A stretch of DNA of 47,658 nucleotides from a filamentous cyanobacterium CCP2. Lineage in GTDB: Bacteria > Cyanobacteriota > Cyanobacteriia > Elainellales > Elainellaceae. Within the stretch, counting starts at the first letter, position 1. The number at the start of each line of letters is the position of its first letter. Positions 4,251 to 39,072 of the stretch are shown here, in pieces. Location: the NCBI GenBank assembly GCA_003003615.1, contig PVWD01000012.1:1-47658 (forward strand), given 5' to 3'. A model generated the notes under the pieces. It saw only the letters and a list, made by a program, of their open reading frames with translations, was not told the origin of the DNA and did not search any database. Made by a program: the position numbers and the translations under genes.

Positions 4251-4267
4251 CTTCCCTCATTTGCGTC

Positions 4268-4394
4268 CTAATGCTCTTTCCCATTTTGTTCCTCCTCTAG
4301 CTGTTGTTTCAGTTCTTCACACTCTTTCACTAACGGAATCCTCAACTCGATCGCCAATGATAAAGCTCGATCGCAATACTCCAAGGCGCGATCG
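4268..4394 (-). pseudogene. TPR-tail remnant T3 (in-frame copy of STAND gene 3' end)
   Basis: On the minus strand this encodes DRALEYCDRALSLAIELRIP and then LVKECEELKQQLEEE before a TAG. It is closely parallel to the last residues of the STAND-TPR protein (DRALEYCDRALELAIELGIP). It has no start codon or upstream TPR body. It lies between the RelE stop (4412) and the HicA start (4250). Confidence 0.75.
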
Positions 4395-4411
4395 CATCCT
4401 CAAAATCATTG

Positions 4412-4883: not shown

Positions 4884-4907
4884 CGTAAGAAGTTCCTCTT
4901 TGATGCT

Positions 4908-5015
4908 CTATCTTTCATTTTCTAATTGAGCTTTCAACTCCTCACACTCTTCCACCAATGGAATCCCTAACTCGATCGAAGGCCAACGCTTGCAATCCTG
5001 TTGCGCCCGATCGGT
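4908..5015 (-). pseudogene. TPR-tail remnant T2 (partly decayed copy of STAND gene 3' end)
   Basis: On the minus strand the last 23 codons (IELGIPLVEECEELKAQLEN then ER and TAG) are nearly identical to the STAND protein C-terminus. The preceding codons are scrambled by small deletions. The remnant begins about 5 bp after the DUF4926 stop and ends 25 bp before the Phd start. Confidence 0.75.
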
Positions 5016-5019
5016 TGCC

Positions 5020-5259
5020 TTAACTCTCAACTAGGATTGGTTCATACGTGAGAAGCATTAACTGTGTAGTGGGAACTGTTTCCATTGCATAAGTTTCTCC
5101 TTGAGCATCGGCAAAATCAACCAGATAAGCCTGATCATTAAAACTCATGAGAACTGTGCCAACCTGCCCATGTCTTAGCAAAATGGGCTGCTTTGTTTCT
5201 TTATGAATTGCTCGGATTTCATCTGTTAAAGCAACAACATCATACTCTTTGATGGTCAT
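5020..5259 (-). CDS. DUF4926-like small protein, 79 aa
   Basis: A small protein of the DUF4926 type, whose function is not established. The start at 5259 is chosen over 5292 because AGGAG sits at 5266-5270, overlapping the stop codon of the upstream DUF6883 gene. The sequence is an SH3-like strand-rich barrel pattern: YDVVALTDEIRAIH, then RHGQVGTVLMSFNDQAYLVDF, then AQGETYAMETVP. It is translationally tied to the DUF6883 gene, and the two look like one functional unit. A toxin-antitoxin or immunity-like role is only a guess from position and size. Confidence 0.75.
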   Translation of the reverse strand: MTIKEYDVVALTDEIRAIHKETKQPILLRHGQVGTVLMSFNDQAYLVDFADAQGETYAMETVPTTQLMLLTYEPILVES

Positions 5260-5269
5260 AGTTAGCTCC

Positions 5270-5605
5270 TCAATGATTGACAGGATAAGCATTGGTTAAT
5301 CTAGGGAAATCTTCACCCGTGCGAACAATCCAACATCCCAATACCAGAGATGTTCCGATCGCAGTTGTCATAGAAAATTTAACATCATAATGAGTTCCAT
5401 ATTGATCGGTTCTATAGATTATTGCTTCCTCTCTGACGGCTGATTCCAGTAACGCAGCTTCTAAAATTTCTTTGTTTTCTAATGTAATCCCTAAACGATT
5501 TCTAAACATAATGGCTTTGTCTTTACCTTTAGGATGTTGCAAGTTTAGTGAATATCGTTCCAGCTTATTGCCCAGTTCTGCCCGATCGCCATTTGGCAAT
5601 TTCAT
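5270..5605 (-). CDS. DUF6883-like protein, 111 aa
   Basis: A small protein resembling the DUF6883 family, whose role is unknown. Visible features are MKLPNGDRAELGNKLERYSL at the start, the conserved HPKGKDKAIMFRNRLGI, and the strand-rich end YDVKFSMTTAIGTSLVLGCW with IVRTGEDFPRL. Its ATG overlaps the stop of the 950-residue STAND-TPR gene as ATGA, so translation should be coupled to that gene. The DUF4926 gene follows and has its ribosome site inside this gene's stop region. The three genes therefore form one tight transcriptional and translational unit. Confidence 0.75.
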   Translation of the reverse strand: MKLPNGDRAELGNKLERYSLNLQHPKGKDKAIMFRNRLGITLENKEILEAALLESAVREEAIIYRTDQYGTHYDVKFSMTTAIGTSLVLGCWIVRTGEDFPRLTNAYPVNH

Positions 5606-8454: not shown

Positions 8455-8508
8455 GGCTTAAAGTCAGGTTTCAGAAACAGCAGTTGACTCGATAATAACC
8501 TTACTTTT

Positions 8509-8525
8509 TCGGAACTTCTCGGAAC
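8509..8525. promoter_or_regulatory. Direct repeat TCGGAAC, 10-bp spacing, in divergent promoter
   Basis: TCGGAAC occurs at 8509-8515 and 8519-8525, one helical turn apart. This is the 125-bp gap between the STAND gene (start 8454, minus) and the small membrane gene (start 8580, plus). It may be a regulator site; no regulator is identified. Confidence 0.3.
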
Positions 8526-8579
8526 GACAGAACTGGAGCGGATTGTGAGAATTGAATCATTGATTAAGAGGTCACTGAA

Positions 8580-8762
8580 ATGAGTCAACAACAACTGGTA
8601 TCAACCCAACAAACCGCCCCTCACGCCTCCATTGATCCTGAACCGATCGCCCAGTCCGAATCTCCAACCGCAATTATCCTGGCAATCGCTATTCTACTCT
8701 CAATCTCGATCGGTTCCATTACCCAACTCGTGCAGGTGATCTTGACCACAAAAAAGCCCTGA
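8580..8762 (+). CDS. Small single-pass membrane protein, 60 aa
   Basis: No family is recognised. The product has a polar N-terminal part (residues 1-28, rich in Gln, Ser, Pro) and one strong transmembrane segment at about residues 30-54 (AIILAIAILLSISIGSITQL), then a short basic end TTKKP. GAGG lies about 8 nt before the ATG. The gene is divergent from the STAND ATPase with only 125 bp between starts, so the two may share control. A membrane partner for the STAND protein is possible, but this is inference from location alone. It is followed by intergenic repeats, not by another gene. Confidence 0.6.
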   Translation: MSQQQLVSTQQTAPHASIDPEPIAQSESPTAIILAIAILLSISIGSITQLVQVILTTKKP

Positions 8763-8828
8763 CTAAAATGGGCGATCGACAGGCTCAGATGAACCGGACA
8801 GTCAAAACTCCTGAATCCGACTACTTAG

Positions 8829-8863
8829 CTGACTGGGCGGGCAAGATGCCCACCCCACAAGAG
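8829..8863 (+). repeat. Dispersed palindromic repeat, arm B only
   Basis: The stretch GACTGGGCGGGCAAGATGCC followed by CACCCCACAAGA is the same as arm B at 955-997 and 26175-26216. No arm A is nearby, so this copy is a half element. Confidence 0.8.
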
Positions 8864-8907
8864 GAAAGTGGAAAGCAGAGAGCAAAAGATAACCAGGCTT
8901 TATTTCT

Positions 8908-8966
8908 AACTCCTGGCTCCTGACTCCTGACTCCCGACTCCCCACCCCCAACTCCCGACTCCCTAC
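8908..8966. repeat. Low-complexity CTCCTGACTCCCGA tract
   Basis: Irregular tandem copies of CTCCTGACTCC/CTCCCGACTCC abut the stop codon of putA. A similar tract lies at 43957-43995. Tracts of this kind are frequent in cyanobacterial intergenic DNA. Confidence 0.8.
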
Positions 8967-11944: not shown

Positions 11945-12172
11945 AGGTAATACTCCCCCTCAATTTGTAAAGCAAGGTTCAGCCCGGATAGAAGAGGGAC
12001 GCTGAAACCTTAAATAGAACGTTTGCAGTGCATCAGCCCACTCAAAGAACCCAATTCAATGATTGCTGAATACCCTACAGCAGCCTATCTTTCTATTGTC
12101 AACGGTGAAGCGAATAACAACATCCAATTGTTAAGGAATGCGGAGAATTGGAGCAAGAAGGAAGAAGGAAAG

Positions 12173-12275
12173 GCGATCGTCTCTTTGGCAGGCAAGCGGC
12201 TTGGGCGATCGTCTCTCTGGCAGACAGGATGCCTGCGCAATCGTCTCTTTGGCAGGCAAGATGCCTGCGCTACGG
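12173..12275. repeat. Three tandem 32-bp copies of a palindrome-bearing unit
   Basis: Units at 12173-12204, 12205-12236 and 12237-12268 each read GCGATCGTCTCTTTGGCAGG (with changes) followed by CAAGATGCCTGC or a variant, ending GCTACGG. Units 2 and 3 keep the GGCAAGATGCC-type core of arm A of the dispersed repeat. The rest of the 11945-12290 gap holds nothing recognised; a minus-strand frame here only translates the repeat. Confidence 0.8.
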
Positions 12276-12290
12276 AAATACTCCTCACTC

Positions 12291-13262
12291 TCAATACCCC
12301 ACCTCCACCACCAACGGCAAATGATCTGACCCGATCGCCCTTCCCGTTCTGATCTGGTTCACCTGAATATTAGGACTGACTAAACAATGATCGATCGGGA
12401 TATCCAAAAATGGAATATCAGCATGCCAAGTGGGGAGAATACCGAATCCTTTCCGCGCATTTTTGAGTCCAGAGGTTTGCACAAAGCGATGATAATTGGG
12501 CGACCACATGGTGATATTTAGATCGCCAATTGCAATCGCAGAACGATTCGTTGTTTGAGTATTTTTATATTGCCTGATGTATTCGCCAATCGTGTTCAGT
12601 TCACGGTTCCGTTGATTGAAAAGAGTTCGGTTGATCGGCGGGGGTGGGTGAATCGCTGCAACGAGTAAGGGACGATCGGGAATGTTGACGGTTGCCACCA
12701 AGTGAAAGTCCTTTTCATTACGAACTGATTGCACAGGTTCCATCTCCAAAGGAAAGCGGCTATAGAGTGCAATGTCCAGTGCAGTGCCAAACACCTTTGA
12801 GCGAGGAGTATGGAATGAGTAGGGCAGAGTTGTTTCAATCGGTTCTAACCCTTGCAGCCAAAACTCATTTGCCTCCACGATCGCCACCACATCAGGTTCT
12901 TCCTCCTGAATTAAATCCACCAAAGCCGACACATTACGATTCTCGTAATTCACATTAGATAGCAGTACTTTGAGTGTCCGAGGCGAAAAAGCGGGCGGGA
13001 AAGCAGACGGAGCCGGCAAATACCAGGGGACGATCGCCCCTAAATTGAGCAGCAGACAGACTAAACTGAGTCCCATCCACCCCGTTTGGCGCGTCAGTCC
13101 AAAAAAAATCAGCGTGATGCCGCTTGCAATGGCGTAATGCACCTTAAAGTGGGCGGTTAAATCTGCCAGAAAACTGAATCTCCCTAAGTATCCCGTGAGG
13201 GAAAGCAGGAGGGTAACAAGCACCAGTAGCATGAAGCCATACGATAGCCAGGTTCGCTTCAT
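12291..13262 (-). CDS. Membrane-anchored endonuclease/exonuclease/phosphatase (EEP) family protein, 323 aa
   Basis: The protein has three N-terminal membrane segments (about residues 7-27, 43-58 and 64-80) followed by an EEP-fold hydrolase domain facing the far side of the membrane. The metal-site motifs appear in order: LLSNVNYEN (Asn), VAIVEANEF (Glu), AAIHPPPP (His), IAIGDLNITMW (Asp/Asn), FLDIPIDHCLV, and SDHLPLVVEV (Asp-His). EEP enzymes cut phosphoester bonds in DNA, RNA, phospholipids or inositol phosphates. Anchored members with this layout are usually annotated only as EEP proteins, so the substrate is unknown. The gene stands alone on the minus strand. Confidence 0.88.
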   Translation of the reverse strand: MKRTWLSYGFMLLVLVTLLLSLTGYLGRFSFLADLTAHFKVHYAIASGITLIFFGLTRQTGWMGLSLVCLLLNLGAIVPWYLPAPSAFPPAFSPRTLKVLLSNVNYENRNVSALVDLIQEEEPDVVAIVEANEFWLQGLEPIETTLPYSFHTPRSKVFGTALDIALYSRFPLEMEPVQSVRNEKDFHLVATVNIPDRPLLVAAIHPPPPINRTLFNQRNRELNTIGEYIRQYKNTQTTNRSAIAIGDLNITMWSPNYHRFVQTSGLKNARKGFGILPTWHADIPFLDIPIDHCLVSPNIQVNQIRTGRAIGSDHLPLVVEVGY

Positions 13263-13472
13263 TCATTTAAGCTCCAGGAATCTGACAGCAAGATTGTAAC
13301 GATTTACCTCCATCCGTTCTAACCTATTGGAGGTTCAATCAAAATATTGGGCATCCAACAGCCTGCCTCCAGTATTGCCAGGAGCAAGTCTTGCTAAAAA
13401 CCAGTATTGCCAAAACGCAGGTTATTACAGTCAAAATATATTTTCAGTCCTATTTTTGATTGAGAACAGACG

Positions 13473-13568
13473 ATGTTTCAGCAAGAACAAACTCCAGCAG
13501 AGATTGTAAATGCGATCGGCTTTGGTTTAAGGCAAGAGTTATTCAAAGGGGAGTATAACGATCAATGA
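13473..13568 (+). CDS. Possible 31-aa leader ORF coupled to the lipoprotein gene
   Basis: A short frame, MFQQEQTPAEIVNAIGFGLR plus 11 residues, runs in the same direction and ends in TGA overlapping the next ATG (ATGA at 13565-13568). It looks like a real helix-forming peptide and could couple translation of the downstream gene, but it has no convincing ribosome site and no known family. The rest of 13263-13472 shows a repeated CCAGTATTGCCA motif and no other signal. Confidence 0.35.
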   Translation: MFQQEQTPAEIVNAIGFGLRQELFKGEYNDQ

Positions 13569-14446
13569 CACGCACCACCCATTCGTTCATTCGGATTGTA
13601 GGAATCAGTTTAAGGGCTGGGCTGCTAGCTGGATTGTTTAGCAGTTGTGCCTTGCTGAACAACACTGCCTCTGAAGCCGATTCATCCCAAGCGACTGCCG
13701 AAAATGGCTCTCTAACTGGGACAGATCTGGCCTGCGACACTCCCACCCATGTCTCTGAAATCGTTTGGAGCAATGGAGAACCCCTCATCACCTTTACCCA
13801 AAAACCTAGTGAAACCATTCTCGATCAGGAGTCAGTCGCCATTCTCAGCAATCCTGACGGCAGCAGAACCTACGGCTACCAAACCGATCGCACGGTCTTT
13901 ACCCGGTTTTACCTGGATGGAACTTGCCTGATTCAAGCCCTAGACGATCAGGACAACATCACAGTGGAAGCATTTGGGCAAACAAGCATCGTTAACCCAA
14001 GCGGAGAGGGTAATACAACGACACCCACCACCAACGGTGATGAACCGATCGATGAACCGATCGCCGCAGCCACCATTTCCACCCCTCCCAGCGAGCCAGT
14101 TTCCAACAGCGAAGATGAACTGATCACCACAGCACCCAACCCAGCAAGCCTGTCGCTGCTCTGTTCAGGAGCCATTCAAAACGACGTTGACTTTACAGCT
14201 TATTTCAACGGTGAGTCCGGTTTTAGCCGTGTGGAATTCTTGCCCCGCGCCTCATCTTCAAATACGCCCTTAACCTCCACCCTTTCCTATAGTGGCGAGA
14301 ATAGTGCAGGACAAGCTCTTTGGCGAGGTTCGGTCAGCGCAATGGCAGATGTAACGCTGGTTCATTTATCAACCTCTGCGGTGAAAGCAGGCGATCGTGT
14401 CTCTGTGGGCTACGACGGACGCTGGGGCCAAGCCATTTGTCGATAA
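13565..14446 (+). CDS. Probable secreted lipoprotein, two strand-rich domains, 293 aa
   Basis: The function is not recognised. The N-terminus is signal-like: basic residues, then LRAGLLAGLFSSC with Cys at about residue 28, an imperfect lipobox, suggesting a lipoprotein or at least an exported protein. The first domain (about 45-140) contains LACDTPTHVSEIVWSNGEPL and YGYQTDRTVFTRFY. A Thr/Pro/Glu-rich linker follows (about 140-190). The second domain (to the end) has two further Cys residues, SLLCSGAIQN and GQAICR, that could pair. GGGGAG lies upstream of the ATG, and a 31-residue frame overlaps the start. It is probably a periplasmic or outer-surface protein. Confidence 0.7.
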   Translation: MTRTTHSFIRIVGISLRAGLLAGLFSSCALLNNTASEADSSQATAENGSLTGTDLACDTPTHVSEIVWSNGEPLITFTQKPSETILDQESVAILSNPDGSRTYGYQTDRTVFTRFYLDGTCLIQALDDQDNITVEAFGQTSIVNPSGEGNTTTPTTNGDEPIDEPIAAATISTPPSEPVSNSEDELITTAPNPASLSLLCSGAIQNDVDFTAYFNGESGFSRVEFLPRASSSNTPLTSTLSYSGENSAGQALWRGSVSAMADVTLVHLSTSAVKAGDRVSVGYDGRWGQAICR

Positions 14447-14605
14447 TACGCTGATAATACCTAGACAAGTTTCTTTTGCCGCTGCTTTAACCTATATTCT
14501 CGCTACACTGGTGAGATAAAGTGTTTTCAATGTAGTTTTGTTAAGAATTGTTCGGTCATGCTGTCTACACCATCGACCTCATTCACCCTCAGCATTCCCC
14601 ACGCC

Positions 14606-24932: not shown

Positions 24933-25988
24933 CTATTGCACAGCAATTTGCGAGTTGGGTTTTGGCTTATCGATCGATCGGTTTCCCGAATTGCCAGGAA
25001 AAAAGACGCTATTACGGAGCGAATCTAGCAGGAAATGAGGTGGGTTCGTGTCTGGCTTGCGCTGAATGACTCGGCGGATACTCCAGGTGCAAAGCCCGAT
25101 TAATCTAGCTAGATCGGCTAGCCCTGCGTATAGGAACCCGTGATTTTTGACAAAATAGCGTCTGCGGGAGTCAAAAACGTATTGAGGTAAACGCTTAGGG
25201 GCAGATTCGCGATCGGTAACTCCGGTACTCTGTCCGGCAATGTGCATCACTCGGCTAGCAGGAACATACCAGCAAGGCCAGCCCGCCCGCTTTGCCTGTA
25301 AACAAAAGTCGGTTTCCTCATAGTAAAGGAAGTACGCTTCATCCATCAGTCCGATCGCCTCAAAGACTTGCCGACGAATCATCATGCTGGCACCGGGCAA
25401 CCAGTCGATCGGTTGGGGTTGATCGCCCATCTTTTGAGCCACGATCCACTTAGACAAGAGTTTGCTCACGAGTCCTAACCGCATTCCCTGTTCCAACTCA
25501 CTCAAAATGCTGGGAAACCGAAAGGCAAACGGCCACAGGCTACCATCTGGGTTTTCTAAACTGCTGCCCATAATGCCGACGGTTGGATGCTGTTCACCAA
25601 AGTCTACCAGTGCTTTGAGGCAACCCGGACGCACCTGAGCATCGGGATTGAGTAAGAGGAAATAGGATGGGGGATGGGGTTGCTCAAGGGCAGGGCGAAT
25701 CGCCAAGTTATTACCGTAGGCATAGCCGCCGTTATGGTTTGAGGGGATGAGAGCCGCCCAACTGTCCCAAGCTTCTGCGGTGATCGCAGCACTGATTTTT
25801 TCAACAGAACCATCGCCAGAATCATTATCGACGACGACGACACGAGTTCCTGACACTGATCGCACTTCGCTAGCCAAGGAACGCAAACATTCAATGGTTA
25901 GATGAGACGTGCGGTAGTTCACAATCACAACCATGAGTTGACATGGAGTTGCTTCGTTAAAATTTGTGCTGTCAATTGCAGTTGTCAT
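24933..25988 (-). CDS. Glycosyltransferase family 2 (rhamnosyltransferase-like), 351 aa
   Basis: An inverting GT-A glycosyltransferase. The N-terminal Rossmann-like nucleotide-binding region reads MVVIVNYRTSHLTIECLRSL with VVVVDNDSGDGSVEKI. The metal-binding acidic motif is LLNPDAQVRPG. The acceptor part has WLPGASMMIRRQVFEAIGLM and DEAYFLYYEETDFCLQAKRA, the EED pattern of WbbL/RfbN-like enzymes. ATG at 25988 is preferred to 26036 because GGTGA sits at a suitable distance. The gene is 380 bp downstream of the NRPS on the same strand, separated by three repeat copies. A role in decorating the NRPS product is possible but weakly supported; cell-surface glycan work is equally likely. Confidence 0.85.
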   Translation of the reverse strand: MTTAIDSTNFNEATPCQLMVVIVNYRTSHLTIECLRSLASEVRSVSGTRVVVVDNDSGDGSVEKISAAITAEAWDSWAALIPSNHNGGYAYGNNLAIRPALEQPHPPSYFLLLNPDAQVRPGCLKALVDFGEQHPTVGIMGSSLENPDGSLWPFAFRFPSILSELEQGMRLGLVSKLLSKWIVAQKMGDQPQPIDWLPGASMMIRRQVFEAIGLMDEAYFLYYEETDFCLQAKRAGWPCWYVPASRVMHIAGQSTGVTDRESAPKRLPQYVFDSRRRYFVKNHGFLYAGLADLARLIGLCTWSIRRVIQRKPDTNPPHFLLDSLRNSVFFPGNSGNRSIDKPKPNSQIAVQ

Positions 25989-26059
25989 AGGGTGAATCAC
26001 CATAAAACGAAGAATTGCGAACGAAGGAGGGAACATTCCATTGATGTAAATGAATCGAT

Positions 26060-26370: not shown

Positions 26371-29300
26371 TTACAGAACAGCATTCATGTACGCCTGGAT
26401 GGCCTCAGCCATGACTTGAACATTTGGCTCTTGCAGCATACTGGAGTGTCCACCTGGCATCTCGTAGACTTTTACCTGCTCAACTCGTTCTTCCCAACCC
26501 AGCAGAGGGTCGCTGAAAATCTCAGTGTAGGGTGTATCGTCAATTACTGTTCCGTCGAATATGCTGCTTTTCTGCGTGGCAAGAAACAGTAGCACTTCTC
26601 CAGGATAAGGTGCTTCAGGCACATATTCTTTCTCCGCAAATCTTAGAACGGCCCAGACTGGAATATTGCTGAGGAACTTGGGAAGGGGCCAGCCGCGATC
26701 GAGGTAATATCGGAAGAGTTTCAATTTGGTTTTCCGTTGAATGGCTGCACTTCTTGAGGTCAATTCGTAAACAAGAAGGTTGATGATCTTTGTCCAGATT
26801 GTTTTGAGGAGGTAAAACAATCGCTGGTGCGGAGCCAGTTGCTTAACCTGACGCAAGGATTGGGAGAAGCCATCCATCCGTTGATTGGCAATGTAATTTG
26901 TGCGGACGGATGCTTTCACATCAGCTGCATCCAGGAGGGCAATCATTTTCACCGTTTGTCCTTCGCGGTGGAGCTTCCGGGCTACCTCGAAGGCGAGAAA
27001 ACCGCCAATGCAAAGCCCACTCAGCAAATAAGGCCCCTCAGGCTGTACCGATCGAATTTGCTCGGTGTAGAAGTCTACCATTTCTTCCAGGCGGGTGTGC
27101 AGCATGGGGAAGCCATCTCTGCTGTAGGGTTGAATTCCGTAAACGGGATGGTCGGCATTCAAGCTGAAGGCTAACTGTCGATAAGGAATGATTTCGCCTT
27201 CACCGTCATGAATAAAGAAAATGGGAGGTTTGTTAGAACTGCCCTTTCTCAGCAAGACGATCGAGTTGTGTAGATCCGAAGGCTTAGATTCCCGCAGGAC
27301 ATCAGCAAGCTGAGCAATGGTGGGTTCAGTCAACAGGGTACTGAGGGGTAGCGTTTTGCCAAATGCTTCCTCAATTTTCATCATCAGCGCGATCGACTGA
27401 AGCGAATCTCCACCAATTTCAAAGAAATCATCCTCAACCCCGATCGGACTAATGCCGAGCACGATTTCCCAAATCTGAACGAGTTGCTGTTCATACTCAT
27501 CTCGCGGAGCCACAAAGGATCTGAAGCCTGCCAAATCTTCCTGGGTTGGTGCAGGTAATGCCTGGCGATCGACCTTTTGGTTAATGTTGACGGGCAGTGC
27601 CTCCAACACGACAAACGTGCTGGGAACCATATAGTCTGGCAGTTTGGCTTGCAAAAACCGCCGAATTTCAGCTTTGTTAGGGGTTTGTAAAGGACTGGGC
27701 ACAATGTAAGCCACTAAACTTTTCTCACTCTTGCCCAATTCCCGCGCCACGACAACCCCTTCCCGCACACCAGGAGCTTTCCGCAAAGCCGCCTCAATTT
27801 CACCGGGTTCAATCCGAATGCCCCGCAGCTTGATTTGATAGTCAGAACGACCCAAAATTTCTAAGTTGCCTGCCTCATCAAACCGACCCAAATCCCCTGT
27901 GCGGTAGAAGCGTTGACCGTCAATTGTGATGAACTTTTCGGCGGTTAATTCTTCCCGATTCAGATATCCCTGGGTAATGCCATCCCCACCAAAATGAATT
28001 TCACCTACCACGCCGATCGGAACTAGGTTTTGATGCGGATCATAGAGGCGCACGGAGACGTTATTGAACGGCTTCCCGACTTTCGTTTTAGTGATAGTTT
28101 GGTCACGCAGTACCGGATACGTGCATCCCATACAGCTAATTTCGCTACATCCATAAATCACGTAGATTTCTGCATTAGCGAACACAGTTTTCATATTTTC
28201 CAGCAGATCAGGCGGAACAATATCTCCCCCGGAAGAAACATGCTTGAGGTGGTTAAACGTTTGGGTATCGATACCGCTTTCCTGAATGTAGGCGATCAGC
28301 TTCCGTAACAAGCTCGGAGACATATGCACGATCGTCGCTTGCTGCAAGGTCTGCACCATTCGCTTGAAATCAAGAACATGGTCACGCTCCAGCAGAATCA
28401 GGGTTCCACCTGCCACCAAGGGCGACCATAACTCAAACATGGTAATGCTGAAGGTAAAGCGAGCGATCGCAGGCATCACATCTTGAGTATTAAACCCATA
28501 TTTTTCTTGAGCCACCCAAATATAGTTCACCAGATTTGCATGGCTAGCCATCACGCCCTTCGGCTTCCCTGTGGTACCAGAGGTGTAGATAATATAAGCC
28601 GTCTGGTTCAGGTCGATCGGGTGATTGGGGTTATGGGTTGGCTGGTCTTGAAGCGTCTGCCATTCTTGGTCGAGACACAACACTGTAGGGACAATGGCAG
28701 GCACAACCGAAGTCAGATGGGACTGGGTTAACAGGACAGGGGGCTGAGTGTCTTCCAGCATGGCAGCGAGTCGCTCCTGGGGATGACTCGGATCAAGAGG
28801 AACATACACACCACCCGCCTTAAAAATGGCTAGAATGCCGACCAAAACCTCCAAAGACGGCTCCATACAGGAAGCCACGCGCACACCGGGTTGCACACCC
28901 AGTTGGTTCAGGTAATGGGCTAACTGGTTAGCTTTTTGATTCAGTTCTGCATAGGTTAGATGTTGACCATTGAAGGAGACGGCTCTTTTTTCCGGCCGCT
29001 GCACTGCATGATTTTCGATGACTGCAAAAATCGGATGCTGCGGATAGCCAACCGAGAGGCTACTCCACTCTTTATGAAATTGGTGCAGTTCTGCGGGAGT
29101 CAGTAGTGGTAAATCTGCAATGGGGCGATCGAGATTGGTCACACTACCTTCAATCATTTGACAGAAATGGCCACTCAAACGCTCAATGGTGCTGTGCTGA
29201 AAGAGATGCACATTGTACTCTAGCCGACCTTTAATATCTAAACCGTCATGCAAAATCTGGAGGTGCAAATCGGGCTGCTCTACCTGAGACAACGGTAAAT

Positions 29301-29859
29301 CCACCGTCTCATATTCTGAAGGGTTAGCATCAGCCGAGAAAGAAATTCCTTGGCTATAGGTAAAGGCAACCGTTGAATGCGGTGTATGACAAGAAACGAT
29401 CGGCAGGGTTTGAAAATCGCTTAGCAGATCAGAAATTTGCTGAACGAGAGACTGAATAGTGCATTCACCTGAAACGGTTGCAGCCAGCCGAACCGTAGGA
29501 GCATCGCCTGTGTGATGAGCTAAAAACGTACAGTCTAAATCAATCAAATTTTGTTGGCTATATCGGTATAGAAGTGCCACAAAAGTAGATAGGAGAAAAG
29601 CACTGGGTGCAGCTCTATTAGGCGACAGCTGTTGATTAACAAATAGTGGCAGTTGGCGCGGAAAACTAAAATCAATGAATCCTGCTTGATAGGGGGTAGT
29701 AGGCAGTTTTAGGAAGTCATAGGGTAACGACAATTTTGAGCGATCGTCGGAAAGAGTGGTTACTTGCATTTGTTGAGGGTACACAGGGTTAGGCAAATGA
29801 TGTACGTCAGCGAAATGCACCTGCTGATCCACTACTTCTAAAGACAATTCAAGGCTCAT
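26371..29859 (-). CDS. Single-module NRPS: partial C-A-T-TE, 1162 aa, atypical adenylation pocket
   Basis: Residues 40-265 match only the C-terminal lobe of a condensation domain (ending LEYNVHLFQHSTIERLSGHF); the lobe with catalytic HHxxxDG is absent. The adenylation domain (270-770) has YTSGTTGKPKG (425-435), FTFSITMFE (468-476), YGCSE (569-573), YRTGDL (652-657) and Lys762 in NINQKVDR. Ser471 replaces the Asp that normally holds the alpha-amino group (FDxSVxE), so the substrate may be an alpha-keto, hydroxy or aryl acid. The carrier site is GGDSL, Ser819. The thioesterase has GLCIGG with Cys950 instead of Ser, Asp977 and His1138 (PGGHSSM). The gene is divergent from HPPD- and TyrA-like genes, which could make 4-hydroxyphenylpyruvate. 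The product is unknown. Confidence 0.9.
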   Translation of the reverse strand: MSLELSLEVVDQQVHFADVHHLPNPVYPQQMQVTTLSDDRSKLSLPYDFLKLPTTPYQAGFIDFSFPRQLPLFVNQQLSPNRAAPSAFLLSTFVALLYRYSQQNLIDLDCTFLAHHTGDAPTVRLAATVSGECTIQSLVQQISDLLSDFQTLPIVSCHTPHSTVAFTYSQGISFSADANPSEYETVDLPLSQVEQPDLHLQILHDGLDIKGRLEYNVHLFQHSTIERLSGHFCQMIEGSVTNLDRPIADLPLLTPAELHQFHKEWSSLSVGYPQHPIFAVIENHAVQRPEKRAVSFNGQHLTYAELNQKANQLAHYLNQLGVQPGVRVASCMEPSLEVLVGILAIFKAGGVYVPLDPSHPQERLAAMLEDTQPPVLLTQSHLTSVVPAIVPTVLCLDQEWQTLQDQPTHNPNHPIDLNQTAYIIYTSGTTGKPKGVMASHANLVNYIWVAQEKYGFNTQDVMPAIARFTFSITMFELWSPLVAGGTLILLERDHVLDFKRMVQTLQQATIVHMSPSLLRKLIAYIQESGIDTQTFNHLKHVSSGGDIVPPDLLENMKTVFANAEIYVIYGCSEISCMGCTYPVLRDQTITKTKVGKPFNNVSVRLYDPHQNLVPIGVVGEIHFGGDGITQGYLNREELTAEKFITIDGQRFYRTGDLGRFDEAGNLEILGRSDYQIKLRGIRIEPGEIEAALRKAPGVREGVVVARELGKSEKSLVAYIVPSPLQTPNKAEIRRFLQAKLPDYMVPSTFVVLEALPVNINQKVDRQALPAPTQEDLAGFRSFVAPRDEYEQQLVQIWEIVLGISPIGVEDDFFEIGGDSLQSIALMMKIEEAFGKTLPLSTLLTEPTIAQLADVLRESKPSDLHNSIVLLRKGSSNKPPIFFIHDGEGEIIPYRQLAFSLNADHPVYGIQPYSRDGFPMLHTRLEEMVDFYTEQIRSVQPEGPYLLSGLCIGGFLAFEVARKLHREGQTVKMIALLDAADVKASVRTNYIANQRMDGFSQSLRQVKQLAPHQRLFYLLKTIWTKIINLLVYELTSRSAAIQRKTKLKLFRYYLDRGWPLPKFLSNIPVWAVLRFAEKEYVPEAPYPGEVLLFLATQKSSIFDGTVIDDTPYTEIFSDPLLGWEERVEQVKVYEMPGGHSSMLQEPNVQVMAEAIQAYMNAVL

Positions 29860-30010
29860 AACAAACCTACTTAAGAAATTTCAAAGTTGGTTAACAATGT
29901 ATAGAAATTACCAAGTTACCCGAAAACTTTATCAGTTTAAATTACAGTTTTGCTCAGGGATTTTTCAGGACTTACTGGCAATTATTTGGAGAAAATTTTT
30001 TGGAAAAATT

Positions 30011-30251
30011 TTTTGAATCTACATCGCTTTTTTACAATCGATACTGTTTCTTTATGGCTTCTACACACATGATTCTAGGTTTTCCGAATGGAGGTTTGTT
30101 CCCCACAGACACTTAGTAGATTCATTCTTCCATGATGGTCTATTTGTAGGGGATTTTCGAGATTTGTACTGAATCTTTAATCAGAATCAAGTTTGTATTA
30201 AGACCGCGTGTAGCCACTAGTACTTGTTTTGAATCTTGAGCTAGATTCAAA
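30011..30251. promoter_or_regulatory. Divergent NRPS/HPPD control region with perfect inverted repeat at 30228-30251
   Basis: TTTGAATCT (30228-30236) and AGATTCAAA (30243-30251) form a perfect 9-bp inverted repeat with a 6-bp spacer. Related TGAATC/GATTC half-sites occur near 30013, 30115 and 30171-30189. The NRPS gene starts at 29859 (minus) and the HPPD gene at 30341 (plus), so a dimeric regulator could control both. The rest of the 481-bp gap is AT-rich, with a tandem AAAATTTTTTGG near 29993-30018. Confidence 0.5.
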
Positions 30252-30340
30252 TCTAAGTTTCACCTGATATTTTTACTGGGTATATTGCAGAGCTGAAGTT
30301 TTTCGCTGCTTTCGCTGTACGAACACTCACTGGAGAAGCT

Positions 30341-31429
30341 ATGTCAAACCCCGTCTGCCCAATCATCGGCATTGATCACTTAGAGTTTTTCGTTGGTAGC
30401 GCAAAACAGTCCGCATTCTTCTATTCCAAATGTTTTGGCTTTAAGAACACCGCTTATCGAGGGTTGGAAACAGGTGAGCGCAAAACAACTTCCTATGTTT
30501 TAGAACAGGGAGAAATCCGTTTTGTTTTAAGTTCGGCGATGAGTGCCAACCATCCCATTGCCCAAAGCGTTGCAAAGCATGGAGATACGATCGCCGTTGT
30601 TGCAATGCAAGTCCCGGATGCAGCGGCAGCCTATCAGTATGCAGTGGAACAGGGTGCAGTCGGAGCGATTCCCCCCACGTCGCAAGCTGATGCTCACGGA
30701 ACCTATCGCTATGCAGCAGTTCATACATTTGGTGATGTGCTGGTCAAATTTGTCGATCGGCGTGATTACTCAGGCAACTTTGCTCCCGGCTTTGTTCCTC
30801 GTTCTGATACTGCTCACTCTGGAGTCGGTCTCACCCGCATTGACCATGTAGTTGGCAATGTAGAAAGAGGGGCAATGGATAGATGGACTCAGTTTTTTGT
30901 GAAAACAATGGGCTTTGAAATGCGGATGCATTTTGATGATCAGGCGATTTCCACTGAGTATTCTGCCTTAATGTCAAAAGTGTTACAAAATGGCGGTAAA
31001 ACCATTGTCAATATCAATGAACCGGCGGATGGTTTACGGAAATCCCAAATTGATGAATATCTAGAGGCACATTACGGCCCAGGAATTCAGCATATTGGTC
31101 TAGCAACCAATGATATTGTTCAAACGGTATTAACCCTAAAGCAAGCTGGCGTGGAGTTTCTCCCGATTCCAAAAACCTATTACGAAAATTTGGAAAGTTG
31201 GGTACATGAAATTGATGTACCGATCGAAAAGCTAGCCGAATTAGGGATTTTAATCGATCGCGATCAAGATGGCTATTTGCTGCAACTCTTCACTAAACCC
31301 CTTGGCGATCGTCCGACCCTGTTTTTTGAAATTATTGAGCGGCATGGTTCACGCGGATTTGGAGCCGGAAACTTTAAGTCTTTGTTCGTCGCATTGGAAC
31401 GAGAGCAGGCATTGCGCGGCAACCTTTGA
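30341..31429 (+). CDS. hppD: 4-Hydroxyphenylpyruvate dioxygenase-like protein, 362 aa
   Basis: A non-haem Fe(II) dioxygenase of the HPPD/hydroxymandelate synthase family. HPPD turns 4-hydroxyphenylpyruvate into homogentisate. Two VOC repeats are visible, and the Fe ligands are His169 (RIDHVVG), His251 (GIQHIGLA) and Glu330 (FFEIIERHGS). The C-terminal helix motif GFGAGNFKSLFVALEREQ is complete. The substrate loop reads VNINEP (224-226): Asn226, typical of HPPD, is kept, while the usual Pro is replaced by Asn224, so product outcome is less certain. GGAGAAG precedes the ATG. The gene is followed by tyrA, whose product could supply the substrate, and is divergent from the NRPS. It may instead serve tocopherol synthesis. 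Confidence 0.9.
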   Translation: MSNPVCPIIGIDHLEFFVGSAKQSAFFYSKCFGFKNTAYRGLETGERKTTSYVLEQGEIRFVLSSAMSANHPIAQSVAKHGDTIAVVAMQVPDAAAAYQYAVEQGAVGAIPPTSQADAHGTYRYAAVHTFGDVLVKFVDRRDYSGNFAPGFVPRSDTAHSGVGLTRIDHVVGNVERGAMDRWTQFFVKTMGFEMRMHFDDQAISTEYSALMSKVLQNGGKTIVNINEPADGLRKSQIDEYLEAHYGPGIQHIGLATNDIVQTVLTLKQAGVEFLPIPKTYYENLESWVHEIDVPIEKLAELGILIDRDQDGYLLQLFTKPLGDRPTLFFEIIERHGSRGFGAGNFKSLFVALEREQALRGNL

Positions 31430-31580
31430 TTCATGCCGAGGACTCATACCAATCTCCTGCTCCTCCTTAAAGTGTTGCGTTTCGCCCCCTAAATTCCAGC
31501 TTTGAGGGTCTGCCGAACAAGGGCATCCCCCTTACCTTCTCATTCTTTTTAGTTCAAACATTCCCAGGCAAACGCTGATT

Positions 31581-32753
31581 ATGGTTATGAGCAAAACACT
31601 CCAGCAAATCGATCGGGATTTAATTCACCTGTTACGCGAACGGATTGCCCTTCTAAAAACCTCTACCCCTCCCCCAGTGGATGAACAACTAGACCACGTT
31701 CGTTCGTTATTGGCGGATGCAAATATTTCTGAATTCACCTGGCAAACGCTGCTGGTTAACTGCATGGCAGCCCTCGCCACATCCCCCTCTCTTGCAATGC
31801 AAATGCAGTCGGAAAGTCGCAAAATTACCATTGTGGGCGGACGGGGAGCAATGGGACGGTTTTGGGTCGATCGTCTAACGGCGGCTGGCCATGCGGTGAG
31901 CGTTTTAGAATATGACGGCTGGAATGAAGCTGATTCTCTGCTGGGTAATGCTGACTTGGTACTCATCGCAGTGCCGCTAAAAAGTATGGTTCCCGTCATT
32001 CGCCGAGTCGCGCCTTACCTCTCGCCCCAAACGATTCTGGCAGATATTGCCAGTACCAAAACCGAGGTTATGCAGGCGATGCTGGATAGCCATACGGGGC
32101 CAGTGGTTGCCTTGCATCCCATGTTTGGCCCAGGAGGAACTTCATTTTTAGGGCAGAAGGTCGTCGTTTGCCCCGGACGCTATCTGCCCCAATCTCAGTG
32201 GCTCCTGGATGCGATTGAAATGGATGGTGGCACGCTGATTACCTGCACCCCTGAAGAACACGATGCCATGATGGTGGCGGTTCAGGCAATTCGCTTCTTT
32301 TCTAACTTTAGTTTGGGCACTTTTTACGCCAAGGAAGGGGTAGACATTGAGCGGAGTTTTGAATTTTCCAGCCCGCTGTATCGATCGGAGATTAACACCA
32401 TCAGCCGTTTGGTAGCGCAAGATGCAGCCCTCTATGTCGATATTCTGCTGGCTTCCCCAGAGCGGTGTGAAGCGATCGGGCGATTAGTGGATACCTATGC
32501 CCATCTGGCGGATCTACTCAATCAGGGCGATCGGGCCGCTCTGATTGCAGAATTTGAAAAGACGCGCCAATCATTTCAGGCTGGAGCAGGGCGATCGTTA
32601 AGTGAAAGCAACTACATGTTAAACAATCTCAGTTCGTTTTTGGCAGCGAAAACGGTTGAAGCCGCTATTGCAAACACACCATCGCCATTACAACTAGACT
32701 TGCAGCCAGAATTACAGCCCCAAGCTCTGCTATCCCTTGATGCAGCCGCTTAG
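31581..32753 (+). CDS. tyrA: TyrA-type prephenate dehydrogenase with short chorismate-mutase-like N-terminus, 390 aa
   Basis: This gene resembles E. coli T-protein rather than the short arogenate dehydrogenase usual in cyanobacteria. Residues 4-26 (LQQIDRDLIHLLRERIALLK) copy the first helix of an AroQ chorismate mutase, but the Lys/Asp/Arg/Glu-bearing helix that completes the active site is not visible, so mutase activity is doubtful. The NAD-binding loop GGRGAMG lies at 86-92. Dehydrogenase motifs are ADIASTKTEVM, VALHPMFGPGGTSFLG and EEHDAMMVAVQAIRFF. The expected product is 4-hydroxyphenylpyruvate, the substrate of the adjacent HPPD. It starts 151 bp after hppD. A second, housekeeping TyrA would be expected elsewhere. 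Confidence 0.9.
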   Translation: MVMSKTLQQIDRDLIHLLRERIALLKTSTPPPVDEQLDHVRSLLADANISEFTWQTLLVNCMAALATSPSLAMQMQSESRKITIVGGRGAMGRFWVDRLTAAGHAVSVLEYDGWNEADSLLGNADLVLIAVPLKSMVPVIRRVAPYLSPQTILADIASTKTEVMQAMLDSHTGPVVALHPMFGPGGTSFLGQKVVVCPGRYLPQSQWLLDAIEMDGGTLITCTPEEHDAMMVAVQAIRFFSNFSLGTFYAKEGVDIERSFEFSSPLYRSEINTISRLVAQDAALYVDILLASPERCEAIGRLVDTYAHLADLLNQGDRAALIAEFEKTRQSFQAGAGRSLSESNYMLNNLSSFLAAKTVEAAIANTPSPLQLDLQPELQPQALLSLDAAA

Positions 32754-34223: not shown

Positions 34224-35009
34224 CTAGAGAATCTGCGAGAGGAACTTCTTGGTGCGCTCTTCTTGCGGGTTGTTGAAAAATGCTTCAGGGGTTCCTTCTT
34301 CCACCAACAGCCCGTCTGCCATTAACACCACCCGATCGGCAACCTCACGGGCAAACCCAACTTCGTGCGTGACGCAGACCATTGTTATTCCTGATTTAGC
34401 CAGAGAGCGCATCACATCAAGCACTTCCCGCACCATCTCCGGGTCAAGAGCTGACGTGGGTTCATCAAACAGCATAATTTTGGGCTGCATGGCCAGGGCC
34501 CGGGCGATCGCCACTCGCTGCTGCTGTCCGCCAGAAAGCTGTCCTGGATATTTGTGAGCCTGTTCCAAAATACCAACCCGCTCTAGAAGCTGCATGGCCA
34601 CCTCTTCGGCTTTTGCCTTCGTCCAGCGACGCACCCAAATCGGAGACAACGTAATATTCTTCAGCACCGTCAAATGGGGAAACAGATTAAACTGCTGAAA
34701 CACCATTCCCACTTCCCGGCGAACCGTTTCAATGTTTTTTAAGTCATGGGAAAGCCGAATCCCGTCAATGACGATATTGCCTTTTTGGTAGCTCTCTAGC
34801 GCATTAAAGGTACGAATAAATGTAGACTTACCTGACCCAGATGGCCCCATGATAACCACCACCTCTCCCTTTTGCACCGTCAGGCTAACCCCTCGCAAAA
34901 CGTGAAAATTATTGTCGTACCACTTCTCCACGTTCTCTGCAATAATCATCGGTTCAGAGCGAACTTCAGATAGCGCATCAGTTGAAGGTTCCGCATGAAA
35001 TTGTGTCAT
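34224..35009 (-). CDS. aapP: Polar amino-acid ABC transporter ATPase, 261 aa
   Basis: The ATP-hydrolysing subunit of a polar amino-acid importer of the GlnQ/AapP group; in Anabaena the analogous role belongs to BgtA. Visible motifs are Walker [11 protein letters not shown]-loop [18 protein letters not shown] signature [16 protein letters not shown], Walker [15 protein letters not shown] and H-loop VTHEVGFA. It is the last gene of the minus-strand operon, after the two permeases (spacing 158 bp to the permease before it). A 20-residue N-terminal extension precedes the usual start ([11 protein letters not shown]), so an internal start near residue 21 is possible. Confidence 0.93.
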
Positions 35010-35167
35010 TGTTCGTGATTCTCCCAGATTGACTCAATCATATCTTGTTGACCATTGGCGTTCTGTATCAGAATGTTGCACCCTGAAGGCTCAACTTATT
35101 TTTACGGCTCGGTTTCTGCGCTTCGTGATTAGAAAATGCATCCCTGCTGCAACCACTCTGCCAAAGT

Positions 35168-36382
35168 TTAGTGCCCCGTATTGAGTTGACGCTCTAGCCT
35201 GCGGCTGCCCCAGGACATGGCATAGCAAAACAGCCAGTAAATAATGCCGATAAACGTATAGGCTTCCCAATACCGACCAATGAACTGCGGATTGGCCAAA
35301 ATCGATCGCGTGATGCCCAACAGGTCAATAATGCCGACGATCGATAAAAGCGTTGTATCTTGAAACAAACTGATAAATTGCCCGACGATCGCCGGAATTG
35401 AAATTTTTAACGCCTGCGGTAGCACAATCAATGAAGTGACCAGCAAGGGATTTAGCCCCAACGCATTTGCCGCCTCGGTTTGCCCCTTAGGAATGGCTTG
35501 CAATCCTCCCCGCACATTTTCCGCGAGGTAGGCCGAACTGAATAGCGTTAACCCAATAATTCCTCGCAAAATGTTGTCTGGTCTTACTCCCTGTGGCAAA
35601 AACAACGGAATCATATTTTGCCCAATGAACAGAATGGCAATCAGAGGGATACCGCGAATGATTTCAATATAAAGAATGGAAAGCCATCGAACCACCGGCA
35701 ATGAACTTTGTCGGCCCAGTGCCAATGCCACACCCAACGGAAAACACAGCACAATACTCACCACTGACATGAACACGGTCAGCAGTAAGCCGCCCCATAA
35801 ACTTGTGGAAACGGTGGGCAAGCCAAAGCCGCCAGCAATCAGCCACAGCACTACAAAAAACGACAAAAACCAGACAAACGGCAACCATTGCCCAACAACA
35901 GGTTTTGCCCTGCCAATTTTTTTTCCGATCCAAGCACTGCCGAGCAGCAAAGCCTCAATTCCTAACAGCACCAGCCGATAGGGTAAAGGAGTTGGTAAGA
36001 GAACAGTAATGACCGCAACGATCGCCACCCCAATCAGCACATTCCGGTCAAATAGCTTAGGCACATTCCTGACTAAAACGCCCCAAGTTAAGCCCGACAG
36101 AGCAGCAATTAAGCCTAAAACCGTAAACAATCGCCAAAACTGAGCGGCGGGGTAGCGTCCGGCAAAGTACAGCGACCAGTTTGCTGGAACGACCTGCCAC
36201 TGAGCAGTTGTGGTTGCCCAACCTAAAAAGCTAACCAAAAGGTTGAGCAGTGTTGTCAAAATAATGACCGTCAGCAGGCTATTGAGCCAGTTGCTAAACA
36301 GGTTTTTTCGCATCCAGGCGATCGGCCCAACCTGAGTGATGGGGGGAGCATTAGAGGAAGAAGGGGGGAGCGTCGTTGTCAT
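35168..36382 (-). CDS. aapM: Polar amino-acid ABC transporter permease, AapM/NatH-like, 404 aa
   Basis: An inner-membrane permease of the polar amino-acid family. A long N-terminal multi-helix region (about residues 25-220) precedes the standard permease half, where the EAA-like loop reads LAENVRGGLQAIPKGQTEAA and then NALGLNPLL. The size of about 400 residues, much larger than GlnP, is typical of AapM or NatH. ATG 36382 is used because the open frame before it starts from TTG (36397). It lies 49 bp after the AapQ-like gene. It forms a heterodimer with that product and pairs with the downstream ATPase. Confidence 0.9.
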   Translation of the reverse strand: MTTTLPPSSSNAPPITQVGPIAWMRKNLFSNWLNSLLTVIILTTLLNLLVSFLGWATTTAQWQVVPANWSLYFAGRYPAAQFWRLFTVLGLIAALSGLTWGVLVRNVPKLFDRNVLIGVAIVAVITVLLPTPLPYRLVLLGIEALLLGSAWIGKKIGRAKPVVGQWLPFVWFLSFFVVLWLIAGGFGLPTVSTSLWGGLLLTVFMSVVSIVLCFPLGVALALGRQSSLPVVRWLSILYIEIIRGIPLIAILFIGQNMIPLFLPQGVRPDNILRGIIGLTLFSSAYLAENVRGGLQAIPKGQTEAANALGLNPLLVTSLIVLPQALKISIPAIVGQFISLFQDTTLLSIVGIIDLLGITRSILANPQFIGRYWEAYTFIGIIYWLFCYAMSWGSRRLERQLNTGH

Positions 36383-36431
36383 GGGAAGGAAAGACAAGTT
36401 TTGGCAGAATATGAGTGAAAAAGTGGGAAAG

Positions 36432-37643
36432 TCAGCGTTCTTTAATTTGAACGGTGCGGTTGAGGGTATTCATTAAGACGGAAATGACCAGGTTAATAAC
36501 GAGGTAGGTAATGGCAATTAAAGTCATCACCTCTACGGCGCGACCCGATTGATTGAGGGCAGTGGTGGCAGATGAAAAAATGTCAGGATAGCCGATCGCC
36601 AGTGCCAAACTAGAGTTTTTGGCCAAATTCATGTACTGACTGTTGAGGGCAGGAATAATCACCCGTAGGGCCTGGGGAAAAACAACGAGCTGCATAACCA
36701 AACCCGATCGTAACCCTAACGCTTTGGCCGCCTCCCATTGCCCCTTGGACACTGCCTGAATTCCGGCTCGGACAATTTCTGCAATAAATGCCCCCGTATA
36801 GAAGACCAGGGCAGACAACACGGCTGTGTATTCCAATGACAAACGCAAACCGCCCTCAGGTTCACCGACCTGGTTTAGCTGGGGAACTTGCCAACCCAAG
36901 CCAACCACAAGAAGCAGTAAGCCCACAGCACCCAAAACGCCCATCGCGATCAGTTGAGGCTTGCCAGAGGTGCCCTGTTCTTCCATCAGCTTGAGTCGCC
37001 ACCGCCAGAGCAGCACTGCCGTAACGAGCGCAGCAATCAGCAAAACCAGCGAGACAAACGAGGTAGCAGTATTGGCGGGCCAGGGGATCGCAATGCCCCG
37101 ACGGCTGGTAAACGCCAGACCAAATAATACATCGTTGGGTTGGTTGGTTCCTGGGGGAGGGGCTGACAGGGTATAGTACACCCCAAAGTACCAGATAAAT
37201 AATTGCAGCAAGAGTGGAATATTTCTCACCAGTTCCACATAGACCTGGCTCAGTTTGCGCAGCAGCCAATTTTCTGAAAAGCTCGCAATTCCAGCGATGA
37301 CTCCTAGCACGGTCGTCAGGACAAACCCTACCAAAATCAGCCGCAGGGTATTGACCAGTCCCACAACGAAGGCCCAGTAGTACCGATCGTTTGGGGTATA
37401 GGGAATAAGGCTTTCCCCAATGTTGAACCCTGCTTCGTTGAACAAAAAAGAAAAGTTGAACTGCCGTCCCTGTTGCCGGAGGCTTTGGTTGAGGTTGCCC
37501 ATTAACACGGAAATCAGGACAACCACAAGAATCACGACAAGGGCTTGAACTGCAATTCGTAAAAATCGCGCATCCCGCCAGAAGGGAGTTTTCTCACGAT
37601 CGCTAAACTGAGTCATGGGTTTGTGAGTTTCTGTCAATTCCAT
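36432..37643 (-). CDS. aapQ: Polar amino-acid ABC transporter permease, AapQ/NatG-like, 403 aa
   Basis: The second permease of the importer. An N-terminal membrane segment (VQALVVILVVVLISVLMG) and a long loop lead into helices with VYVELVRNIPLLLQLFIWYF, which marks the AapQ/NatG type. The EAA loop is IAEIVRAGIQAVSKGQWEAA then KALGLRSGL. The C-terminus IALTYLVINL-like helices end NRTVQIKER. ATG 37643 and ATG 37616 are possible starts. A hairpin lies 8-38 nt before the start codon in the message and may limit its translation relative to the binding protein encoded upstream. Confidence 0.9.
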   Translation of the reverse strand: MELTETHKPMTQFSDREKTPFWRDARFLRIAVQALVVILVVVLISVLMGNLNQSLRQQGRQFNFSFLFNEAGFNIGESLIPYTPNDRYYWAFVVGLVNTLRLILVGFVLTTVLGVIAGIASFSENWLLRKLSQVYVELVRNIPLLLQLFIWYFGVYYTLSAPPPGTNQPNDVLFGLAFTSRRGIAIPWPANTATSFVSLVLLIAALVTAVLLWRWRLKLMEEQGTSGKPQLIAMGVLGAVGLLLLVVGLGWQVPQLNQVGEPEGGLRLSLEYTAVLSALVFYTGAFIAEIVRAGIQAVSKGQWEAAKALGLRSGLVMQLVVFPQALRVIIPALNSQYMNLAKNSSLALAIGYPDIFSSATTALNQSGRAVEVMTLIAITYLVINLVISVLMNTLNRTVQIKER

Positions 37644-37650
37644 TTAGAAT

Positions 37651-37681
37651 GCTGTAGGAACGTTGAATCTGTCCCTACAGC
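37651..37681 (-). promoter_or_regulatory. Intercistronic hairpin between aapJ and aapQ
   Basis: GCTGTAGGAAC (37651-37661) and GTCCCTACAGC (37671-37681) pair over 10 of 11 positions with a 9-nt loop. In the message it sits after the binding-protein gene and 8 nt before the permease start, where it could stabilise the upstream transcript or block the ribosome site. Confidence 0.5.
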
Positions 37682-37730
37682 CAAAGTTTGATTAATGAAT
37701 CACTACATCATTACAGCAGACTACGAATGT

Positions 37731-38813
37731 TTAACGGAACGGCGGAGAGTACATTAAACCACCCTCTGTCCAAAGCTGATTTTGGCCGCGATCGAGACCC
37801 AACTCGGAAGCTTCACCAACATTGCGATCGAAAATTTCGCCATAATTGCCAACGGACTCAATTACCTTCACCATGTAGTCATTTGGTAAACCCAACTGAG
37901 TTCCTAAATCACCTTCAACCCCCAGGAAACGACGAATTTCCGGGTTTTCGCTGCTCAGTTGTTCCTGCACGCTGTCTTGGGTAATGCCAAACTCTTCTGC
38001 CTGAATCAAGCCATACGTCACCCACTTCACCACGTCATACCACTTCGAGTCGTTGTTGATGGTGACAGGGCCCAACGGCTCTTTTGACATAACAACATCC
38101 AGCAGCACATGCTCATCAGGATTCGGCAGAGTTGTCCGACGGGCTGCCAATTGGGAACGGTCAGACGTGACCCCCTCACACCGTCCTTCCGCATAGGCGG
38201 CATAGGTAGCATCAGAATCCTGGAACTTAACCTCGTTGTACTGCACGCCCAATTCCCGCATCCGGTCTGCCAGGTTGAGTTCGGTTGTGGTTCCCGTTTC
38301 CACACAAACCGATCGCCCTTCAAAACCGCTCAGGTCAGTAATACCGCTATCTGTACGCACCATCATCCCTTGACCATCAAAGAAAGTTGTAGGTGCAAAC
38401 TCCAGACCATTTCCTCCCACAGCATCACGGCTCGTTGTCCAGGTGGTGTTGCGGGAAAGCATGTCTACCTCACCCCCAACCACCGCCGTAAACCGCTCCG
38501 TTGAGTCTAGATTTCGGTACTCTACTTGGTCTGGGTCGCCAAACAAAGCAGCGGATACCGCCCTACAAACATCAACATCCAAACCGGAATATTCACCTGT
38601 AGAATCCACGAAGCTAAAGCCAGGAATACTACCCTCAACCCCGCAGATCAAAGTCCCACGCGAGAGAATCGTATCTAGACGGCTTGTAGCTGCACTGCTT
38701 GCTGTTGTTGTACCCTCTGCACCCCCATCGGCAGAACCGCTTGGAGCGGGAGAACAAGCTGCCAAAGCTGCTATAGAAAGCGATGCTGCCAGTAGAAAAC
38801 GCCACTTTCGCAT
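37731..38813 (-). CDS. aapJ: Amino-acid ABC transporter substrate-binding lipoprotein, AapJ/NatF-like, 360 aa
   Basis: The periplasmic solute receptor that delivers amino acids to the two permeases. The start at 38813 (MRKWRFLLAASLSIAALAAC) gives a textbook lipobox, LAAC, so the protein should be membrane-anchored; the open frame back to 38891 is not natural. The family 3 solute-binding signature appears in LICGVEGSIPGFSFVD, SGLDVDVCRAVSAALFG and VCVETGTTTELNLADRM. The Ser/Gly-rich linker after the Cys is usual. It is the first gene of the operon, upstream of aapQ, aapM and aapP. The specificity could be broad, for acidic or neutral polar amino acids. Confidence 0.92.
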   Translation of the reverse strand: MRKWRFLLAASLSIAALAACSPAPSGSADGGAEGTTTASSAATSRLDTILSRGTLICGVEGSIPGFSFVDSTGEYSGLDVDVCRAVSAALFGDPDQVEYRNLDSTERFTAVVGGEVDMLSRNTTWTTSRDAVGGNGLEFAPTTFFDGQGMMVRTDSGITDLSGFEGRSVCVETGTTTELNLADRMRELGVQYNEVKFQDSDATYAAYAEGRCEGVTSDRSQLAARRTTLPNPDEHVLLDVVMSKEPLGPVTINNDSKWYDVVKWVTYGLIQAEEFGITQDSVQEQLSSENPEIRRFLGVEGDLGTQLGLPNDYMVKVIESVGNYGEIFDRNVGEASELGLDRGQNQLWTEGGLMYSPPFR

Positions 38814-39072
38814 AGTAATCGCACTCACTCCTTCGATGAATAAAAATGTCACCCAAACAGGGCGTAGTTGCCTTAAAAAGAGCAGATGCACATATCACAG
38901 TTGCACATTCTGCCGTTAAAACCAGTCCACTCGCAGTTGCACAGGTAAACAAATGGGCGCATTCCTAATCAAGAGGGCAACCGTCATCAGAGTTTCCGAC
39001 TATCTGACCTTACCCCCATCAACGCCTTTATTTTTGCTACATTAACCTTCTCGCGGTTCATGCTTTATTTTT

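Follow-up and report, generated by a model that had tools for sequence, protein, structure and literature searches.

A conserved cyanobacterial NRPS locus with hppD and tyrA: a possible homogentisate starter module

Several described systems resemble parts of the locus analyzed here, which lies in a stretch of 47,658 nucleotides (the window) from the filamentous cyanobacterium CCP2 and comprises a nonribosomal peptide synthetase (NRPS) gene with adjoining genes for 4-hydroxyphenylpyruvate dioxygenase (HPPD) and prephenate dehydrogenase (TyrA). The arylpyruvate A-T-TE synthetases (atromentin, polyporic acid and the ralfuranone enzyme RalA) share with the window NRPS a single module, the lack of Asp235 and a precursor at the 4-hydroxyphenylpyruvate node, whereas the window family differs in having Ser rather than Val as the first code residue, a half condensation domain, an adjoining HPPD and two-module relatives. 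DhbE and EntE, the aryl-acid starter A domains, use a non-amino aromatic starter, as we propose for the window, and likewise have a polar residue at position 235. However, the window A domain is not stand-alone, is closest to ordinary amino-acid NRPS A domains, and carries Ser235 and YGCSE in place of Asn235 and the DhbE A5 motif. The scytonemin cluster of cyanobacteria also includes an extra enteric-type TyrA for 4-hydroxyphenylpyruvate supply, but no scy-type genes were found among the ten annotated neighbours in the window, which has an NRPS and HPPD instead. For the thioesterase (TE), the closest parallels are ObiF1, whose nucleophile motif carries Cys, and AB3403, the nearest solved relative of the window TE, in which alignment places Cys in the corresponding motif (GWCFGG); unlike the window NRPS, both modules have a full C domain and an amino-acid A domain.

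The locus points to a conserved, unassigned biosynthetic gene cluster family in filamentous cyanobacteria, for which it makes a clear prediction about the chemistry. We favour a reading, to which we assign a probability of about 0.5, in which it is a small dedicated pathway where TyrA and HPPD supply homogentisate and the A domain activates it. If correct, homogentisate would join the known NRPS starter units, and genome-mining tools could use the code to recognise it. Within the open-licence literature, a scope that makes the absence weak evidence, we found neither a homogentisate A domain nor an NRPS-HPPD-TyrA cluster; with no characterized homogentisate A domain there, the code has no reference to be compared with, which counts against the homogentisate reading.

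Domain architecture and adenylation pocket

The NRPS gene (26371..29859, minus strand) encodes 1162 aa with the layout half-C/A/T/TE, as indicated by Pfam and by alignment of an AlphaFold model. Pfam matches comprise AMP-binding, AMP-binding_C, PP-binding and Thioesterase, in the A-T-TE order, preceded by only the end part of Condensation. The half condensation domain (residues about 41-256; 29092..29739, minus strand) matches Condensation only at profile positions 386-451, and a motif check found no HHxxxDG in the protein, so we regard the N-terminus, which is kept in relatives, as a C-lobe remnant. It is followed on the same strand by the adenylation domain (residues 277-768; 27556..29031; also TIGR01733), a carrier domain with GGDSL (residues 787-857; 27289..27501) and the thioesterase (26374..27261), where the motif table gives GLCIGG with Cys950 (codon 27010-27012) at the nucleophile position. 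The AlphaFold model, built with 15 sequences (mean pLDDT 69, pTM 0.44), aligns along the C-A-T-TE modules AB3403, EntF and SrfA-C. This prediction backs the domain order and gives nothing on the substrate, the pocket being too loosely modelled to judge.

The A4 motif of the window NRPS is ARFTFSITMFELW (FTFSITMFE). As the preliminary description had claimed, Ser471 (28447..28449, minus strand) aligns with Asp235 of PheA, and the proposed pocket, S-I-F-H-V-S-I-C-M-K, proved correct by hand alignment to PheA; automatic alignment was off by one column at positions 299 and 301 and agreed elsewhere. In the A5 motif, Cys571 (28147..28149, minus strand) replaces the Pro of YGPTE, giving YGCSE. Amino-acid A domains are reported to conserve this Pro, and one keto-acid domain to have Met there (PMC11253843). 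The A5 Cys, the half condensation domain, the Cys-type TE and the neighbouring glycosyltransferase add to what the preliminary description had noted. Both Ser471 and Cys571 are invariant in the family. Of the 136 distinct A domains collected across all the loci retrieved, the Asp/Pro combination occurs in 93 and the Ser/Cys pair in 23. All 23 of the latter fall inside the window NRPS family; in five further rows the 235 column holds Ser and the second column Gln or Ala. Confinement of the pair to one clade with support of 100/100 argues against chance, and the earlier proposal of a non-amino-acid A domain is supported. Taken by themselves, Ser235 and the A5 Cys say merely that the substrate is probably no alpha-amino acid.

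Activation of a common amino acid, for instance tyrosine, through an odd pocket, with the neighbours supplying tyrosine, would be in line with McyG, which activates Phe with Val at position 235, so that the Asp is not a strict requirement (PMC11253843). We consider this very unlikely, because HPPD consumes the tyrosine precursor, the A5 Pro is replaced by Cys throughout the family, and Ser, His278 and the dioxygenase neighbour are strictly conserved.

Precursor supply genes and the conserved neighbourhood

Divergent from the NRPS gene, and separated from it by an intergenic region at 29860..30340 in the ORF maps, lies hppD (30341..31429, plus strand; 362 aa), whose product scores 408.6 bits against TIGR01263 (4HPPD; curated cut-off 277) and keeps both F336 and the His-His-Glu metal site (H187, H270 and E349). 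The adjoining tyrA (31581..32753, plus strand; 390 aa) encodes an enteric-type prephenate dehydrogenase scoring 284.6 bits against NF008400 (E. coli-type CM/PDH), slightly over the cut-off of 273. This match starts only at residue 73, and by eye the mutase (AroQ) region at the N-terminus seems degraded, as has likewise been described for Nostoc (PMC1173090). All cyanobacteria have an arogenate-type TyrA, and some have an extra enteric-type TyrA that likely prefers prephenate (PMC1173090).

The genome also has a second HPPD (G000:C470), 65% identical to the window copy, adjoining an AsnC-type regulator and an hmgA-like homogentisate dioxygenase gene (assigned as hmgA by sequence reading), while the only other TyrA match is a single short one located elsewhere. 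Given this separate catabolic hppD-hmgA pair and ordinary short TyrA, the window genes are extra and probably dedicated to supply for the NRPS pathway. HPPD has general roles in cyanobacteria, and hppD and tyrA might in principle serve tocopherol or tyrosine metabolism, with their linkage to the NRPS incidental; we find this scarcely credible in view of the second copies and of the recurrence of the grouping in several cyanobacterial orders, in both divergent and codirectional arrangements.

Across the 22 loci of the family, adjacent genes encode HPPD in 14 cases and TyrA in 12, with one or both present at 18; two of the four remaining loci are cut by contig ends, and for a contig-cut locus (G445) an hppD-tyrA pair sits at the end of another contig. 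The grouping that the preliminary description suggested searching for is strongly co-conserved, contrary to the absence of co-conservation that the description had named as refuting its proposal. HPPD and NRPS genes are divergent at most loci and codirectional at L143 and L144. DAHP synthase occurs in 4 of the 22 clusters, which fits the expectation for precursor supply. We detected no HPPD or TyrA at 87 other NRPS loci, a weak control, as most flanks were short (median locus 5.8 kb). Genes for an amino-acid ABC transporter (34224-38891) were considered as pathway components and rejected: the permease and binding-protein genes have no counterpart at related loci, which gave only distant ABC ATPase matches for the ATPase.

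Domain anatomy, code, clade, gene co-conservation and the duplicate hppD are all read from sequence, and from them we infer the catalytic steps throughout, as well as substrate and product. The extra TyrA would convert prephenate to 4-hydroxyphenylpyruvate, from which HPPD would form homogentisate (2,5-dihydroxyphenylacetate). The A domain would activate homogentisate as an aryl-acid starter and load it onto the T domain, with Ser471 replacing the amino-binding Asp because the substrate would have no amino group. Ser471 may hydrogen-bond the 2-hydroxyl, the nearest functional analogy being Asn235 in DhbE-type domains, which holds the 2-hydroxyl of the substrate (PMC11253843). Transfer or release of the homogentisyl group would then fall to the TE, whose nucleophile position is occupied by Cys. 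Against this scheme, homogentisate could have a different fate, with some other compound serving as the A-domain substrate.

The second-ranked substrate is 4-hydroxyphenylpyruvate itself, which the A domain would activate, as the atromentin and ralfuranone synthetases do, and the A-T-TE protein dimerise, leaving HPPD as a separate branch or competitor. The A-T-TE layout and the missing Asp235 fit this possibility, as does the presence of TyrA beside the NRPS even at loci lacking HPPD. However, the first code residue in characterized keto-acid A domains is Val (PMC10316625, PMC5238615), Gly in AulA or Ile in StsA (PMC5238615, PMC11253843), and the arylpyruvate A-T-TE codes start with the hydrophobic Val where the window has Ser471; at position 5, enzymes using 4-hydroxyphenylpyruvate have Asn (PMC10316625), whereas the family has Val or Ser. 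Moreover, the substrate would be depleted by HPPD, which adjoins the NRPS at 14 of the 22 loci, one branch of the family (group II, below) also has an HPPD-like protein, and the two-module forms are not dimerising enzymes. We therefore consider 4-hydroxyphenylpyruvate an unlikely substrate. The preliminary description had proposed a pathway built on 4-hydroxyphenylpyruvate or homogentisate; the homogentisate branch of that proposal is the one we favour, and arylpyruvate activation is weakened by the code, which has Ser rather than Val, Ile or Gly, and by the consumption of 4-hydroxyphenylpyruvate by HPPD.

Clades, pocket codes and dioxygenase types

Clear family members emerged from profile searches in three orders: 5 of 36 genomes from the window's own order, 13 of 42 from a second and at least 4 of 391 sampled from a third, the last being a lower bound because only two candidates were scored per genome. 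Members stood apart from other NRPSs by a gap in the searches of the first two orders; for the third order, the code and the tree decided which weaker matches belonged to the family. The resulting A-domain clade spans several cyanobacterial orders, with members including Leptolyngbya sp. FACHB-8 and FACHB-36 and two Leptolyngbyaceae MAGs. In the A-domain tree it forms one clade (100/100) containing group I (100/97) and group II (95/78), with L143 outermost.

The two groups differ in code and in neighbouring dioxygenase. Group I (code ICM, as in the window) has HPPD at 13 of 15 readable loci, and group II (code LSL; L106, L107, L108 and L038) has an adjacent HPPD at 0 of 4. Three of the four group II loci instead encode, beside TyrA, a short HPPD-like protein of 221-241 aa (L106:7359-8024, L108:14518-15243, L038:14332-15012), and such a gene is also found in the fourth group II genome near the start of another contig (L204:837-1517). 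These proteins resemble the C-terminal half of HPPD, with TIGR01263 scores of 38-39 bits in the two that were scanned, and both His and the Glu metal ligands align. Code and kind of neighbouring dioxygenase thus change together, an indication that the pocket tracks what the dioxygenase makes, predicted to be homogentisate for the window. The split gives a Fisher p of 0.004, from hand-entered counts and with kinship ignored, and it coincides with the two clades and is hence close to a single evolutionary event. L143, the deepest member, has a full HPPD, yet its code is nearer that of group II. This natural clade pair, with two codes and two dioxygenase types, offers a test of how A-domain pockets track supply enzymes.

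The undefined chemistry of the group II dioxygenase-like protein, together with the limited meaning of Ser235 and the A5 Cys for substrate identity, would suit an A domain that takes another aryl acid close to this branch (4-hydroxyphenylacetate, 4-hydroxyphenyllactate or a hydroxymandelate), with HPPD acting differently on the product line. Score and residues, however, mark the window HPPD as a standard 4HPPD, and a 4-hydroxymandelate synthase is ruled out by its scores (374 bits for 1t47 versus 176 for 2r5v) and by the retained F336, so that we regard another aryl acid as quite doubtful. Returning to homogentisate, the set of genes recurs in related cyanobacteria, pointing to what is probably an undescribed pathway that activates it. 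We put forward more tentatively a picture of the whole family, in which a homogentisate starter is served by dedicated TyrA and HPPD, the sister branch uses the product of the short HPPD-like protein, and both often feed a Cys-type TE paired with a glycosyltransferase.

Two further features were noted among these loci. At L142 and L145 the group I code occurs in a plain A-T-TE protein that lacks the half-C domain, hppD is missing from the neighbourhood, and the two genomes have a distant HPPD only; like L143, these loci count against the link between code and dioxygenase and against the homogentisate reading. At L038 (13320-14114) and L108 (13642-14436), a Methyltransf_3-type O-methyltransferase gene lies between tyrA and the short HPPD-like gene.

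Two-module relatives, thioesterase and glycosyltransferase

Six members of the family (L136, L138-L141 and L144) have a second C-A-T-TE module whose code, DILQL/IG..W (DILQLGMVW), resembles the glycine code; the module 2 code differs in L137 and L109. These two-module relatives indicate that members of the family act as starter modules; in the window, the module is fused directly to the TE. In the two-module enzymes, a C domain would take over the starter and couple it to an amino acid, in most cases glycine.

Next to the window NRPS lies a family-2 glycosyltransferase gene (24933..26036, minus strand; Pfam), whose enzyme probably either attaches a sugar to the product or synthesises the acceptor. 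It is present at 11 of the 22 loci, and its distribution follows the TE, being found at 11 of 13 loci with a G[LM]C-type TE and at 0 of 9 with other TEs (counts from the motif table, supplemented by separate motif readings for three loci). A partnership between this TE type and the glycosyltransferase is a reasonable guess, no more, from these sequence associations. The gene is otherwise widespread in cyanobacteria, often with no NRPS nearby, and the window's genome has a second copy. The idea that the glycosyltransferase marks the starter clade was rejected, since it tracks the G[LM]C-type TE and also stands beside other NRPSs. NRPSs with a G[LM]C.GG TE outside the starter clade likewise adjoin a family-2 glycosyltransferase at L124, L126, L127 and L203.

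In Leptolyngbya FACHB-8 (L109), two NRPSs of the family adjoin each other (3359-10126 and 11101-14454), one single-module with a Ser-type TE and the other two-module with a Cys-type TE.
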